NCBI GenBank assembly: GCA_021159885.1
Contig: JAGHDO010000010.1
Span: forward strand, 1 to 63,184
DNA length: 63,184 bases
Reading direction: 5' to 3'
DNA from: Synergistota bacterium
Lineage (GTDB): Bacteria > Synergistota > GBS-1
Shown: positions 17,374 through 50,262 of the stretch, piece after piece
How positions within the stretch are numbered: position 1 is the first letter of the stretch
Layout of the letters: every line of letters starts with the position of its first letter
Program-made: the position numbers and the translations under genes
The notes under the pieces: model-generated
The model's input: the letters and a program-made list of their open reading frames with translations, nothing else
What the model was told of the DNA's origin: nothing
Database searches by the model: none

Positions 17374-18099
17374 ATGCGCGAAGAGGAAAGAATAGCGCAG
17401 AAAAAGGAATTTACTATGATCACGGAAGAGGAAGAGAAAGCATTAAGAGAGATAGCAAATATACTTGAAAAGAAAGTCTCCGACTTTGCCGATAAGATCT
17501 ACTATCATCTCTCAAGAGCAGAAGAAAGAAGAAAGCATGCACTTGGCACATCAAAAGCAGAGGAATGGAGGTTCGCCTTGAGAGAATACTTAACGAGCTT
17601 AATCAAAGATAACATAGATGCCCGCTATCTTGAGAAGAGAGTGACCCTCGGCAAAAAAAACTACAAAACCGGTGTGGCGCTCGAACATTTCATAGGAATA
17701 TATAATCCACTCATCAAGCCATTGCTTGAAGCCGTATTCGATGCATATAAAGAGGAAAAAGATAAAGCTATTTTAACATTTAGCGGACTTATGAAAAGAA
17801 TAAATCTCGATGTTCAAATAGTCATAGAAACCTACATGAGCTTGGTAGGAGAAAGCGTCGCTGAAGCCAACAATGATCTTAAGACGGTGGTCAAAACCAT
17901 ATCTAAGATAGCAGGGCAAACTAAGCTCCTTGCCCTCAACGCTGCGATAGAAGCCGCTCGTGCCGGGACTGCTGGAAAGACCTTCGCCGTGGTAGCCCAA
18001 GAAATAGGCAAACTCGCCTCTTCTTCAGCAAGAGCTGCCGAAGAGGCAGACGAAATGATAAGAAAACACTTAGAGAATTTCGTCAAGGGGTGGAGTTAA
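17374..18099 (+). CDS. Soluble globin-fold sensor fused to a minimal chemoreceptor signalling tip
   Basis: Cytoplasmic 241-residue protein with no membrane segment. Residues about 20-155 resemble the protoglobin sensor of HemAT-like receptors. By eye the haem-ligand region aligns as [15 protein letters not shown], which puts Asn96 where the proximal histidine should be, so haem binding is doubtful. Residues about 170-225 are a chemoreceptor hairpin tip ([18 protein letters not shown]...[12 protein letters not shown]) that normally contacts CheA/CheW. The long coiled-coil arms and methylation helices are missing. The ATG follows GAAGGGAGG. The last 30 bases overlap the end of the facing fumarase beta gene. 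A role in chemotaxis-like signalling or anti-sigma control is inference. Confidence 0.8.
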
Positions 18100-44082: not shown

Positions 44083-45753
44083 CTAAGGATTAAGAAGCAC
44101 CGCTCCTTTATTAGCCGAAGAAACCAGTTTTGAATACCTCGCCAGATAACCGGTCTTATACTTTGGAGGAGGTGGAGTCCATTCCGCAAGCCTTCTTTTT
44201 ATCTCCTCTTCTGAAACTCGGAGGATCAGCTTTCTATTCGGTATATCAATTTCTATCTCATCTCCCTCCTTCACTACAGCTATAGGTCCTCCCCTCTGAG
44301 CCTCAGGAGAAACATGGCCTATGACCGCTCCCCTGCTTCCTCCGGAAAATCTTCCATCGGTTATAAGAGCCACGCTTCCGTCAAGCCCCATACCTGCAAT
44401 AGCAGATGTGGGAGCAAGCATCTCTCTCATTCCTGGACCTCCAGCAGGCCCCTCATACCTTATCACAACAACATCTCCCTCGCGTATTTTCCCAGCATAG
44501 ATAGCTTCTATAGCTTCTTCCTCTGAATTAAAAACGCGAGCCTCACCAACATGATGGAGCATCTCTTTTTTAACCGCAGCTTCCTTAACTACAGCGCCAT
44601 CGGGAGCAAGATTTCCCCAAAGTATGGTAAGACCACCTCTCTCGCTATAGGGATCCTCAACGCTCCTTATAACCTCTCTATCAAGAACGCGAGCGTCCTT
44701 AATTACCTCACCGAGGCTAACCCCCATAACCGTCATAGCATCAAGCTTAAGCAAGTTAAGCTTAGAGAGCTCCTTCAACACGGCAGGAATTCCTCCCGCC
44801 CTATTCAAATCTTCTATATGCTGCCTGCTTGCTGGACTGATTTTGCACAGGGTTGGAGTTTTCCCTGAAAGCTCATCAAACTTGGTGAGTGGAAGATCCA
44901 CACCAGCCTCATAGGCTATAGCGGGAAGGTGCAGGACCGTGTTAGTTGAACCTCCCAGAGCAAGATCAAGAACTATCGCGTTATGAAAGGCCTCCTCAGT
45001 CATTATATCCCTCGCCTTAATTCCTCGCTTGACAAGCTCAACGACTTTTATCCCCGCCTTAAACGCTATTCTTTTCCTAATACCGTCATATCCCGCAGGA
45101 ACTGTCCCGTTTCCGGGAATAGCCATTCCGAGAGCTTCAGAAAGGCAATTCATCGTATTCGCGGTAAACATTCCCGCGCATGAGCCACAGCCTGGGCAGG
45201 CAACCATAGAAAGCTTTTCAAGATCTTCCTCAGAAATTTCTCCTTTCTTAAGCTTGCCTATCCACTCAAAAACGGTTATGAGATCAACAGCTTCCCCATC
45301 GTACAGAGGAGACAGCATCGGACCACCACTGACTATAACCGCGGGGAGGTTAAGCCGAGCAGCTGCCATAAGCATACCGGGAATTATCTTGTCGCAGTTA
45401 GTAATGAGAACCAGACCATCAAGCTGATACGCGTTAGCCATCGTCTCTATGGAATCCGCTATGAGCTCTCTTGAAGGAAGTGGATACTTCATTCCCTCAT
45501 GTCCCATAGCTATGCCATCACATATGCCTATAACGGGAAACTCCATAGGAGTTCCACCCGCGTGCATTACTCCTCTTTTAGCAGCATAAGATATAAAATC
45601 GAGATGAACATGCCCGGGGATCATTTCATTAGCAGCATTCACCACTCCAATTAGAGGTTTTTTTAACTCTTCCGGTGAGTAACCCATAGCATAAAATAGA
45701 GATCTGTGAGGTGCCCTTTCAACTCCTTCCGCTACTCTTCTGCTTCTTAGCAT
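44083..45753 (-). CDS. ilvD: Dihydroxy-acid dehydratase
   Basis: Iron-sulfur dehydratase of branched-chain amino acid synthesis, 556 residues. Cluster cysteines are visible in [14 protein letters not shown] and [37 protein letters not shown] is the C-terminal signature. I start at ATG 45753, eight bases after GGAGGTGA; the GTG at 45783 has no site. No other ilv genes are near, and no attenuator leader is seen upstream. Confidence 0.95.
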
Positions 45754-45789
45754 AAGCTTCTTCACCTCCTCAAAGTTAAACACGAAAGA

Positions 45790-45824: not shown

Positions 45825-45833
45825 TGCTATAAT
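45825..45833 (+). promoter_or_regulatory. Extended -10 promoter of the chemoreceptor-KaiC operon
   Basis: TGCTATAAT is a perfect extended -10 element 35 bases upstream of the chemoreceptor ATG. No good -35 is present at 17 bp, which is normal for extended -10 promoters. Confidence 0.6.
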
Positions 45834-45868
45834 ATAATTACTTCCGCCTATTGAAAGGAGGGAAAGCC

Positions 45869-47602
45869 ATGAAACTCAGCAGCAAAGTAGTCATCGGATT
45901 CACGGTAGTAATAGGTATAATGTTAATTTTAACCCTTTATTGCTTAAATACCATTTCAACAATGCAAGCTCAAGCAACCAAAATAAGAGAAATGGACACT
46001 CCTCTACTTATTGAAAGCGAGCGGTTTAAAACAGATATAGCAAGAATAAGCAGATATTTCTCCGCTCGCTTTCACGCTGAGTTAAAGAAATTTAATCTTG
46101 AGAGAGCGCTCGAGGAAGCGCGGAACCGTTTAAACAAGATCCTCAGCATAGCGGAAAAAATGAAAGACCAGCAGGATATAGCAAAGGTAAACGAGCTTAA
46201 AAACGACTTTAACGCTTATATATCTCTTTCTTCAGACATAGCATCCGCCTTAAACAAGGGCGCTTCCCTCGAAAGCCTGAGAACTAAGCTTGAAAATCTC
46301 GCTCAAAAGAGGGAGATCCTTGAGGACAGAGCTAATCAGCTCGCATACTCAGCGCAAAGTAGATTAGATAAGCTTAATTTGATAGCGAAAAGCTATGCCA
46401 TCGATATGAAGAGAATTTCTATAGTACTGCTTATAGTAGGAATAGCAATAGCTATTGGAATATCAGCATACCTATCCCTGCGCCTTAAGAAAACCCTATC
46501 CCATCTGCTTGAAGGAGCTGAAAGACTAACTAAAGGAGACTTAGCTTTCAAAATGCCTCAGCCTAAGGGAAACGATGAGATATCACAATTAATTAAGGCT
46601 TATAACATGATAGTAGACTCGTTCAAGAAATCCTTAATAGAAATTCGAGAAAAAGCATTAACCATAGACGATGAAGTCGAAAAGGTAAAGAGAGCATCGG
46701 AAAGCTCAACGCAGAAGCTTATCGAGATAACAGAGAGAATAAAGACTATTTCTGAAAAGATGGAAGACAACACCGCAAATGTCGAAAATATAAATGCAAG
46801 CATCGAAGAGGTTACCGCATCTACCACCGAGGTTGCTAAACAAGCTGAAACGATAGCTCATGAAGCCAACAATATTACAACATTCGCTCAAGAAGGCGGG
46901 AAGAAAGTGGAAGAAGCTATCTCAAAGCTTAAAGATATATCAACAAGCGTTAAGAGCATCGAACAAATAGCACTGACCCTTGTCGACATAGGAAAATCCA
47001 TAGAGACATTTGCAGGAACCATCTCAAACATAGCCGATCAAACTAACCTCCTCGCATTAAACGCGGCAATAGAAGCAGCCCGCGCTGGAGAAGCTGGAAG
47101 GGGTTTCGCCGTCGTCGCTGAGGAGATAAGAAAGCTCGCTGAGGAATCAAACAAGGCTGCACAGGAAATAGAGAAGCTAACCCAGAGCATAAGATACGAA
47201 ACACAAAAGGTCGTTGGAGAAATAAAAAGCACAATAGAAGAAGTGGCAAGAAGCTCCTCCATAGCAGATGAAGCGTCGATAAAGCTTAACCAGATAATAG
47301 AAAGTATCGCAACTATAAGCGAGAAGATAGAAACAGTTGCGGGATCTACCGAAGAGCAGAGCGCTGCGCTACATGAGATAGCGAAAGCGATAGACTCGAT
47401 AGCGAACAACACTCTTAGGGTATCTGGAGAGATAGAGGAGATAAACGAAGCGGTGGAAACAAATACGGCCTCCTTTGAGGAAATTACAGCAAGCTTAGAA
47501 GAGCTTGCCAGAATCGCTGAACGACTCAGAGAGATAGTATCGCAGTTTAAGATGGAGGATAAAGCTAAGGAAACCGCAATAAAAGAGGTAAAAGAGGAAT
47601 GA
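45869..47602 (+). CDS. Methyl-accepting chemotaxis protein
   Basis: Membrane chemoreceptor of 577 residues. TM1 is about 6-27, a helical extracytoplasmic sensor about 28-183, TM2 about 184-204, then HAMP, then a long coiled coil with the tip [40 protein letters not shown] split here at positions about 383-420. No CheR-tethering pentapeptide ends the protein. ATG 45869 follows GAAAGGAGGG; an upstream frame to 45851 has no site. It overlaps the KaiC-like gene by four bases, which is unusual company for a chemoreceptor. Confidence 0.93.
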
Positions 47603-48456
47603 AAGAGGCAAAAGTCGTAGAGAGAGCTCTCTCTCTCGCAAGCGATCTTAAGAATAAGGCTCCAAAGCTTTTCGGGATAGCAAGCGGAGTAGAGGGGCTC
47701 GATGAGCTCTTCTACTCCGTTGAACTTAAAAATGGAAAGATCGTGAGGAAACCGCTTGGAGGTTATCCCTATAGAGCTGTTATAAATCTGACCGGCATGC
47801 CCGATACCGGTAAATCACTTATGGCGGAGCAATTCGCGGTAAAGCAAGCATCCTTGGGGTATCCCGTTTGCTTTGTAACGGTAGAAAGCCCTGCACCGTT
47901 TCTAATGCAGGGGCTAAAGATAAGATCAAACGCAATGGGTATAAAATGGGAAGAGGTAGAAAACAAGATAGCAATTATAGATGCAGCTACATATTCTATT
48001 CTTAGAGAAGACCTCCCAAGCTTGCTTAAAACTATAGAAAAAGCTATCGAAGAGTATGAGATAAAATCCGTAATAGTAGACTCTATAACTGGCTTATACG
48101 AAGCAAAAGAAATAATGGCAAGATCAATAGTAAGGAAGGTCTTCAATTTCTTAAAAAGATTTGGCCAAACAGGTCTACTGATAAGCCAGAAAAGAAGCAG
48201 TCATGAAGCTGAGTCCGCCGAAGCAGCCGGCGGATATGCGGTTAGCCACATTTGCGATGTTAGCATGGTAACAGCGAAAAAGGTTATTCAGACTCAAAGA
48301 GATGAAAAGATATTCAAAAAGACACCTGGAACGCTGGTAAGAACCTTCAGAATAGATGGGTCAAGAATGTGCGGACATGATACTGATACTCATCTGCTTG
48401 AAATAACAGAAACGGGTCTCGCTAAGATAGGCCCAAAGATTGCAGAAATCGAGTAG
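47599..48456 (+). CDS. KaiC-like RecA-fold ATPase (archaeal AF_0351-type family)
   Basis: Single-domain RecA/KaiC-type ATPase of 285 residues. Walker A is GMPDTGKS (66-73), the catalytic glutamate is probably Glu96 in FVTVESP, and Walker B is SVIVDSITG with Asp161. A later loop ([22 protein letters not shown]) fits the sensor/DNA-binding-loop region. The N-terminal segment [17 protein letters not shown] is the KaiC lead-in. I place it, from memory, with the archaeal KaiC-domain family (TIGR03880), whose members sit next to the HTH family found here. Role is thought to be regulatory or sensory; unproven. Confidence 0.75.
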
Positions 48457-48470
48457 GGAGTGAGAAAAAC

Positions 48471-48824
48471 ATGGTAGAGATACTAAAGCCCAAAGAGGAA
48501 GATTATGACAATTTGGCTCTTGAAACGTTTGCCATGGTAATAAAGGAGCTCGGAGGTCCCAAGAAAATGATCCAATATAGGCAACTAACCTGGCTTCCAA
48601 GCTTGATGGAAGCATGCTATGCCATAGTCCTTAGCGAAAAGGGCAAGAAAACCGCAGATGAGATAGCAAAAATTCTCGGTATAACTAAGGAAACCGTAAG
48701 ACGAATCCTTTCAGCTGATCCAGAAGCAGTTAAGAAGAAAATAGAGGGCGAAGAGCGAGATATAAGTGTGCACACCGCGGGAGGGCTGGCAAAGCTCGCT
48801 TGGGGAAAAATCAAGAAATCCTAA
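48471..48824 (+). CDS. HTH regulatory protein of the KaiC-partner family
   Basis: Cytoplasmic 117-residue protein. Residues about 59-80 form a clear helix-turn-helix (KTADEIAKILGITKETVRRIL); the N-terminal half is helical (YDNLALETFAMVIKELGGPKK) and the tail is short and basic. I place it with the family known to occur beside archaeal KaiC-like genes (TIGR03879), on recognition and context. The start follows GGGAGTGAG. It ends four bases into the convergent trkH fragment. Confidence 0.72.
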   Translation: MVEILKPKEEDYDNLALETFAMVIKELGGPKKMIQYRQLTWLPSLMEACYAIVLSEKGKKTADEIAKILGITKETVRRILSADPEAVKKKIEGEERDISVHTAGGLAKLAWGKIKKS

Positions 48825-49144
48825 CGCTTATAAGTTTCAGGCAAAAAGATTAAAAGTATGGCGTAAAGCTCAAGTCTACCTGCAGCCATGCAAAAGCTCA
48901 AAATCCACTTAGCAAAAGAAGTGTGAAAGGCATAGTTTTCAGCAGGACCTACTTTCCCCAAACCAGGGCCTATATTTCCAAGGGTAGCAGCAACAGAAGC
49001 TATTGAGGTTACTATATCCTCGCCTAAAGCAGTTATAATCAAGGAAGCAACGACGAATATAACCATGTAAATCATAAAGAAGTTTACTACGGAGCTTATC
49101 ACGCTTTGAGAAAGGCTTCTACCATTAAGCTTGATCGATATCAC
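48821..49144 (-). CDS. trkH: TrkH C-terminal part (fourth pore repeat), in a different frame
   Basis: Last quarter of a TrkH potassium channel, 107 residues. It opens at a GTG overlapping the stop of the upstream part as GTGA. The first codons (V)ISIKLNGRS continue the family sequence directly from HPEL at the end of the other part. The fourth selectivity filter is in AATLGNIGPGLGKVGPAENY, and the last helix is LAKWI-like SFAKWILSFCMAAGRLELYA. A single base shift (minus one) restores a full-length TrkH. See the entry at 49141. Confidence 0.85.
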   Translation of the reverse strand: MISIKLNGRSLSQSVISSVVNFFMIYMVIFVVASLIITALGEDIVTSIASVAATLGNIGPGLGKVGPAENYAFHTSFAKWILSFCMAAGRLELYAILLIFLPETYKR

Positions 49145-50262
49145 AGCTCTGGATGAATCAACCTATAAAGTTCCCTTTTAAATACTTTAAGAAGTACCAT
49201 TATCCTAACATGCTTTATCGCTCCACCAGTTGAACCAGCACATCCACCTATAAACATTAAAACCAGAAGAAAATACCTGGCAAACGGATGCCACCAAGAG
49301 TAGTCAGCAGTAACATACCCAGTAGTAGTTAGTATGGATATCACCTGGAAAGACGCATACCTTAACGACGAGAAGATGGTTTTATAGTTCCCGCTTATAT
49401 ACAAGCAAACCGTAACGAGGAGTATACCTATAAGGATGAAGCCAGCATAGAACTTAAACTCGTCATCCTTAAAGAAGCACTTCCAATCCCCTTTAAGAGC
49501 ACGATAATGAAGAGAAAAATTAGCTCCGGCTATAAACATGAATACCATTATCACAACCTCAAAATAAAGGTTATGATATTGACCAATGCTTTTGTTCAAC
49601 GGGGAAAATCCTCCCGTTGCAACCGTTCCGAAGGTATGGCAGAGGGATTCATAAAAGCTCATTCCACCCATATAAAGCAAAATGGTTTCTGCCGCAGAAA
49701 CGAGGAAATAAACTCCCCACAAAAGCTTAGCGGTTTCTCTCATCCTGGGCTTTAGCTTTTCGGGAACGGGACCTGGAACCTCAGCCTTGAATAGCTGCAT
49801 TCCTCCTACCCCAAGAGCAGGAAGAATAGCAAGCGAGAGGACTATTATCCCCATACCACCAAGCCAGTGCGTAAAATCTCTCCAGAATAGTAATCCCTTA
49901 GGAACAGCCTCTATATCTGTTAGGACGCTCGCTCCCGTAGTGGTAAACCCGGACATTGCCTCAAAGAAGCAATCAACATACTTAGGAAAGACTCCTCCAA
50001 AATAATAGGGAAGCCCTCCAAGCGCCGCAGCTCCAAGCCATCCAAAAGCAACTATGCCAAACCCTTCCTTAGGAGTAAACTCCACTCCCTTCTCTCCAAG
50101 AAGAGCGAGAAGGGCTCCCAGAGCGATAGAGAAAGCCATAGCCTCGAGCAGGGGAAAAGGATCCTCTTTAAAGTAAAGTGCCCATCCAAGCGAAAAGACC
50201 ATCGATATGCCCAGAAAGATAAAAAGCCACCCTAATGGATATATAACAGCCCTTAAGCGCAA
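49141..50262 (-). CDS. trkH: TrkH potassium uptake protein, first three pore repeats
   Basis: Main part (373 aa) of a Trk-type K+ channel. Filters seen are SGFTTTGASVLTD, GTVATGGFSPLN and LTTTGYVTADYSWW, with GGCAGSTGGAIKHVRIMVL behind them. The frame ends at TGA 49143-49141, exactly where the C-terminal part begins one base back. Either the gene has a one-base deletion, the two parts assemble as separate chains, or a frameshift is programmed; no classic slippery heptamer is visible. It follows trkA by two bases in the cda-glmM operon. Confidence 0.88.
   Translation of the reverse strand: MRLRAVIYPLGWLFIFLGISMVFSLGWALYFKEDPFPLLEAMAFSIALGALLALLGEKGVEFTPKEGFGIVAFGWLGAAALGGLPYYFGGVFPKYVDCFFEAMSGFTTTGASVLTDIEAVPKGLLFWRDFTHWLGGMGIIVLSLAILPALGVGGMQLFKAEVPGPVPEKLKPRMRETAKLLWGVYFLVSAAETILLYMGGMSFYESLCHTFGTVATGGFSPLNKSIGQYHNLYFEVVIMVFMFIAGANFSLHYRALKGDWKCFFKDDEFKFYAGFILIGILLVTVCLYISGNYKTIFSSLRYASFQVISILTTTGYVTADYSWWHPFARYFLLVLMFIGGCAGSTGGAIKHVRIMVLLKVFKRELYRLIHPEL

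Follow-up and report, generated by a model that had tools for sequence, protein, structure and literature searches.

KaiC-like ATPases of Pfam family PF06745 include cyanobacterial KaiC, archaeal ArlH and the UPF0273 proteins, and a role as hubs of archaeal signal transduction has been proposed for such ATPases (Makarova et al. 2017, cited in PMC5847659). A literature search for the ATPase model TIGR03878 found no paper naming it, and the initial annotation of the locus studied here was right that the pair formed by a KaiC-like ATPase and a helix-turn-helix (HTH) protein has no settled function. That annotation described such a pair behind a chemoreceptor gene in a 63,184-nucleotide stretch of DNA from a Synergistota bacterium (contig JAGHDO010000010.1; here called the window). 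It suggested that a signal at the membrane is passed to the ATPase and the HTH protein, either alongside CheA or in its place.

The gene order and spacing first described were exact in the sequence. The chemoreceptor gene (45869-47602, forward strand, 577 aa) and the ATPase gene (47599-48456, forward strand, 285 aa) overlap by 4 bp, sharing the ATGA at 47599-47602 (forward strand) that holds the stop of the former and the start of the latter; the HTH gene (48471-48824, forward strand, 117 aa) follows after a gap of 14 bp. The start originally assigned to the locus, 45825, is upstream of the chemoreceptor gene. The longest open reading frame (ORF) over this gene opens at a TTG at 45851, and the start called is the ATG at 45869, which follows GAAAGGAGGG. 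On the upstream side is a divergent gene for a dihydroxy-acid dehydratase-like protein (ilvD; 44083-45783, reverse strand), named from ORF reading, and on the downstream side a convergent TrkH gene (48821-50262, reverse strand). The latter consists of two ORFs in the window (49141-50262 and 48821-49144; 373 and 107 aa) versus a single 480-aa ORF in GBS-1, the nearest relative holding the pair, and the split reflects either a frameshift or a mistake in the assembly.

Such close spacing of the three genes implies that they are co-expressed, presumably by cotranscription, and this arrangement could have been selected. A promoter scan revealed no forward sigma-70-type promoter in the window region and one sigma-70-type site before the ATPase gene of GBS-1. 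Since the string TGCTATAAT was present in both of the regions scanned, the receptor gene may have been placed behind the former promoter of the ATPase gene, a point on which we do not rely.

Profile analysis assigned the ATPase to TIGR03878 (NCBIfam; 396 bits against a cut-off of 232.2, spanning model positions 1 to 258 of 259), and PF06745 gave 174 bits. TIGR03880, the family suggested at the outset, scored 34.1 bits against a cut-off of 249.45. Across 85 aligned sequences, the core DTGKS of the Walker A motif (GMPDTGKS, residues 66 to 73; 47794-47817, forward strand) was conserved, and E96 and the Walker B residues D161-S162 also were kept. The description of the protein as KaiC-like held, and a RadA/Sms identity was rejected with 18 bits of a 403-bit cut-off. 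A circadian KaiC was rejected as well, the protein (285 aa) having one KaiC domain where the clock protein has two and scoring 33.6 bits with the circ_KaiC model against a cut-off of 546. A role in anti-phage defence was considered and set aside: PADLOC had no family for the ATPase or for DUF505 (see below), and the HTH-type matches that it gave to the HTH protein were all weak.

The third gene encodes a predicted DNA-binding protein of TIGR03879, the family proposed for it initially; its score was over the cut-off (NCBIfam; 108.7 bits against 65.1), and its gene lies immediately behind that of a KaiC-domain protein. An AlphaFold2 model (pLDDT, 86.5) was all helical, with the HTH at about residues 42 to 80, and a search for solved relatives of the model gave none that was significant (best E value, 0.17). 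The window protein is a short form, in which ~85 aa present at the C terminus of most homologues are missing. Homologues mostly have 201 to 222 aa, and short forms of 117 to 142 aa, found in the window and at loci L006, L018, L027, L035, L235 and L239, appear to have more than one origin.

Our survey covered 91 distinct TIGR03878 loci in several phyla, and flanks of about 1.5 kb limit many of their neighborhoods. In 85 of these loci, 450 bp or more of downstream sequence was available; the HTH gene was directly downstream of the ATPase gene in 50 of them and nearby in 7 more. The pair had been thought to be known mostly from archaea. This view did not survive the genome counts: TIGR03878 was over the cut-off in 114 of the 136 genomes of the phylum to which a Thermovibrio record (L032) belongs, and in 16 of 297, 4 of 29 and 29 of 147 genomes in the phyla of L025, L016 and L022, respectively. 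The pair is widespread among thermophiles and near-universal in one bacterial phylum. Among the 188 genomes in the phylum of the window, only 2 had TIGR03879 over the cut-off. In the ATPase tree, the window and GBS-1 sequences formed a group (100/95) with four others, which come from Thermoproteota records and relatives of these, and the separately built HTH tree showed the same company plus Scotarchaeum (97/80); both trees were midpoint rooted for drawing only. Because the two trees agree on an archaeal placement and the pair is rare in the phylum, joint transfer from archaea is the simplest reading, and the sequences suggest that the ATPase and HTH genes probably arrived jointly from a lineage of thermophilic archaea.

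In several WOR-3/Hydrothermota-type genomes, the ATPase and HTH genes are followed by genes for DUF505 (PF04458) and an SDH/ClpP-like serine protease (PF01972), forming continuous strings (L022:7494-10138, L023:7490-10082, L039:7474-10094 and L043:7454-10068), and AIM24 or PH-domain genes were found near the pair in other genomes. These neighborhoods, together with DUF505 scores over the cut-off in 25 of 35 further genomes that encode the ATPase, speak for an ancestral job of the pair in membrane-protein quality or membrane stress control, exerted via DUF505 and the protease, of which the lineage of the window would keep the regulatory half only. Adjacency is sparse, however, with DUF505 beside the ATPase in at least 11 and SDH in at least 10 of the 91 loci, counts that are lower bounds given the short flanks and the use of one query each. 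Moreover, DUF505 was over the cut-off in none of four family members (the window genome and three others, G000 to G003), so it cannot be the target in the window genome. We consider this account possible but rather doubtful; it concerns the targets of the pair and is compatible with the explanation that we favor below. DUF505 was absent from 5 of 5 genomes with a short HTH form, including that of the window, versus 5 of 21 with a long form (Fisher p = 0.004, with groups formed by hand, kinship uncorrected and the genomes of L235 and L239 left out). The association is a hint that DUF505 works with the C-terminal part of the HTH protein that short forms lack.

The first gene of the locus encodes a transmembrane chemoreceptor, as originally described. 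Its two transmembrane segments (about residues 7 to 27 and 183 to 203) flank a predicted four-helix-bundle sensor, and the second is followed by a HAMP domain (residues 202 to 250, 37 bits) and an MCP signalling domain (MCPsignal, residues 332 to 513, 151 bits; both Pfam). The nearest solved folds to a model of the sensor domain (pLDDT, 80) include periplasmic four-helix sensor domains, with E values of 0.005 or weaker, and the sensor region had no match in the 187 other genomes of the phylum (188 including that of the window). Over 304 residues, the signalling domain aligned nearly gap-free with the Thermotoga maritima receptor of PDB entry 2CH7. The signalling tip, a 36-residue region of CheA/CheW contact (47039-47146, forward strand), was near-identical both to that of 2CH7 and to those of paralogues in the window genome, which also share its length. 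Thus, the protein combines an MCP domain, a conserved tip and a HAMP domain after the second transmembrane segment, as in CheA/CheW-coupled receptors, and two genes for CheA and three separate ones for CheW are present in its genome. Judged by its tip, it most likely is an ordinary receptor that joins CheA/CheW arrays and signals via CheA.

The statement that the window lacks cheA, cheW and cheY agrees with the gene list, but the window contains a second receptor-type gene and che genes are present on other contigs. These were read from selected stretches of the genome outside the window. On contig C14, the genes for CheB, CheA, CheC and CheD form a cluster, behind which lies a FliA-like gene. 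On contig C17, CheA, receptor and CheW genes are clustered, close to a gene for a receiver-domain (CheY-like) protein, and further CheW genes are on contigs C60 and C67; the FliA-like and CheY-like genes were named from reading only. The second receptor-type gene of the window (17374-18099, forward strand) encodes a 241-aa protein with Protoglobin (94 bits) and partial MCPsignal (79 bits) matches, likely a soluble haem-based receptor. Short MCP-type frames of 217 to 254 aa that resemble it also occur in genomes G001, G002 and G003.

The three genes were found together in the window genome alone. Of 81 other TIGR03878 loci with at least 1 kb of upstream sequence, none had a co-directional upstream chemoreceptor gene. 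GBS-1, classified by NCBI as unclassified Bacteria, has an ATPase 80% identical to that of the window and matching flanks, with an ilvD-like gene on one side and TrkH, TrkA-like, GlmM-like and YbbR-like genes on the other; TRAP transporter genes on the other strand lie between ilvD and the ATPase gene, in the place of the receptor gene. The initial annotation had named a lack of conserved linkage in related genomes as grounds for refuting its proposal; such a lack is what was observed, and a receptor-coupled KaiC-HTH module is not supported. With GBS-1 the sole further genome of the phylum that has the pair, the receptor may have been gained here or lost in GBS-1. Only one other surveyed locus, L145 of genome G290, lies near a chemoreceptor-like ORF, which points away from the ATPase gene. 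In the 35 other ATPase-bearing genomes, MCP matches were absent from 21, below threshold in 1 and present in 13; the genomes with no chemoreceptor match are mostly draft metagenome assemblies, as are most relatives.

These data bear on the suggested passage of the signal from the receptor to the ATPase and HTH protein, which would be a lineage-specific rewiring, with direct signalling from receptor to ATPase to HTH protein besides or instead of CheA. The ATGA overlap and the 14-bp gap favor it, as does the hub role that PMC5847659 cites as proposed for archaeal KaiC-like ATPases, and a pair whose HTH protein lacks its C-terminal part, in a genome without DUF505, may be one that has been rewired. 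The linkage itself is not conserved, however, as seen in GBS-1, the 81 loci and the 21 genomes with no MCP match, and the tip is canonical for CheA/CheW. GBS-1 has the same short HTH protein but no receptor beside the pair, which shows that the shortening does not depend on the receptor. Finally, a paralogous receptor gene cut by the end of contig C82 (L245:1-2456), with a tail similar to that of the window receptor, shares an identical ATGA overlap with a gene for an M18 aminopeptidase. Because the aminopeptidase is unrelated, such an overlap is not diagnostic of shared function, and that between the receptor and ATPase genes argues for co-expression at most. We regard the rewiring as improbable, and the more specific version, in which a newly placed receptor has come to provide the input to an archaeal-type ATPase-HTH regulator and so to give a membrane-to-gene route bypassing CheA, as more improbable still.

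A functional role for cotranscription that needs no contact between the proteins also was considered. The receptor would work via CheA and the ATPase-HTH pair would regulate chemotaxis or motility genes; genes for chemotaxis and for a FliA-like sigma factor are indeed present in the genome, and a single transcript would co-regulate the receptor and the pair. The same 21 of 35 ATPase-bearing genomes with no MCP match argue against this notion, and the recurrent neighbors of the pair elsewhere are DUF505, the ClpP-like protease, AIM24 and a PH-domain protein, making it unlikely in our view.

We consider it probable that the locus consists of an ordinary CheA-type receptor and an imported ATPase-HTH regulator that share one transcript by local gene order. 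As the first unit, the receptor with its four-helix-bundle sensor would join CheA/CheW arrays and signal through CheA. As the second, the ATPase and HTH protein would form a nucleotide-switched DNA-binding regulator. The ATPase would assemble as a RecA/KaiC-type ring and, depending on its ATP state, would hold the HTH protein or not, by way of the conserved N-terminal region of the latter that includes the invariant LTW (residues 39 to 41), and this would switch the action of the HTH protein at its target promoters. We infer ring assembly, ATPase-HTH binding, the regulatory role and the CheA coupling of the window receptor, drawing the regulatory mechanism from what the families suggest. An attractive signalling proposal thereby becomes ordinary, and the tight ATGA overlap with a receptor gene is no evidence of shared function. 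The useful remainder is a little-studied, widespread ATPase-HTH pair that apparently moved together between domains, and the strings with DUF505 and a ClpP-like membrane protease in some lineages offer a concrete place to seek its function.

Compared with known systems, the window receptor is of the same length class as T. maritima 2CH7 and has a near-identical tip, and it differs in having its own, unmatched four-helix-bundle sensor. The HTH protein resembles other TIGR03879 (near_KaiC_dom) proteins in its score over the cut-off and its position directly downstream of the ATPase; unlike most of them, it is short (117 aa), with ~85 C-terminal aa missing. With cyanobacterial KaiC, archaeal ArlH and the UPF0273 proteins, the ATPase has the family PF06745 in common, whereas it is single-domain, its best PDB relatives score about 50 to 59 bits and the ArlH model gives 36 bits of a 215-bit cut-off. 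It shares with the TIGR03878 (thermo_KaiC_2) ATPases a full-length match, the Walker A core, E96 and the Walker B DS, and is distinguished from the others by its place behind a chemoreceptor gene and by its grouping with archaeal sequences despite a bacterial host.
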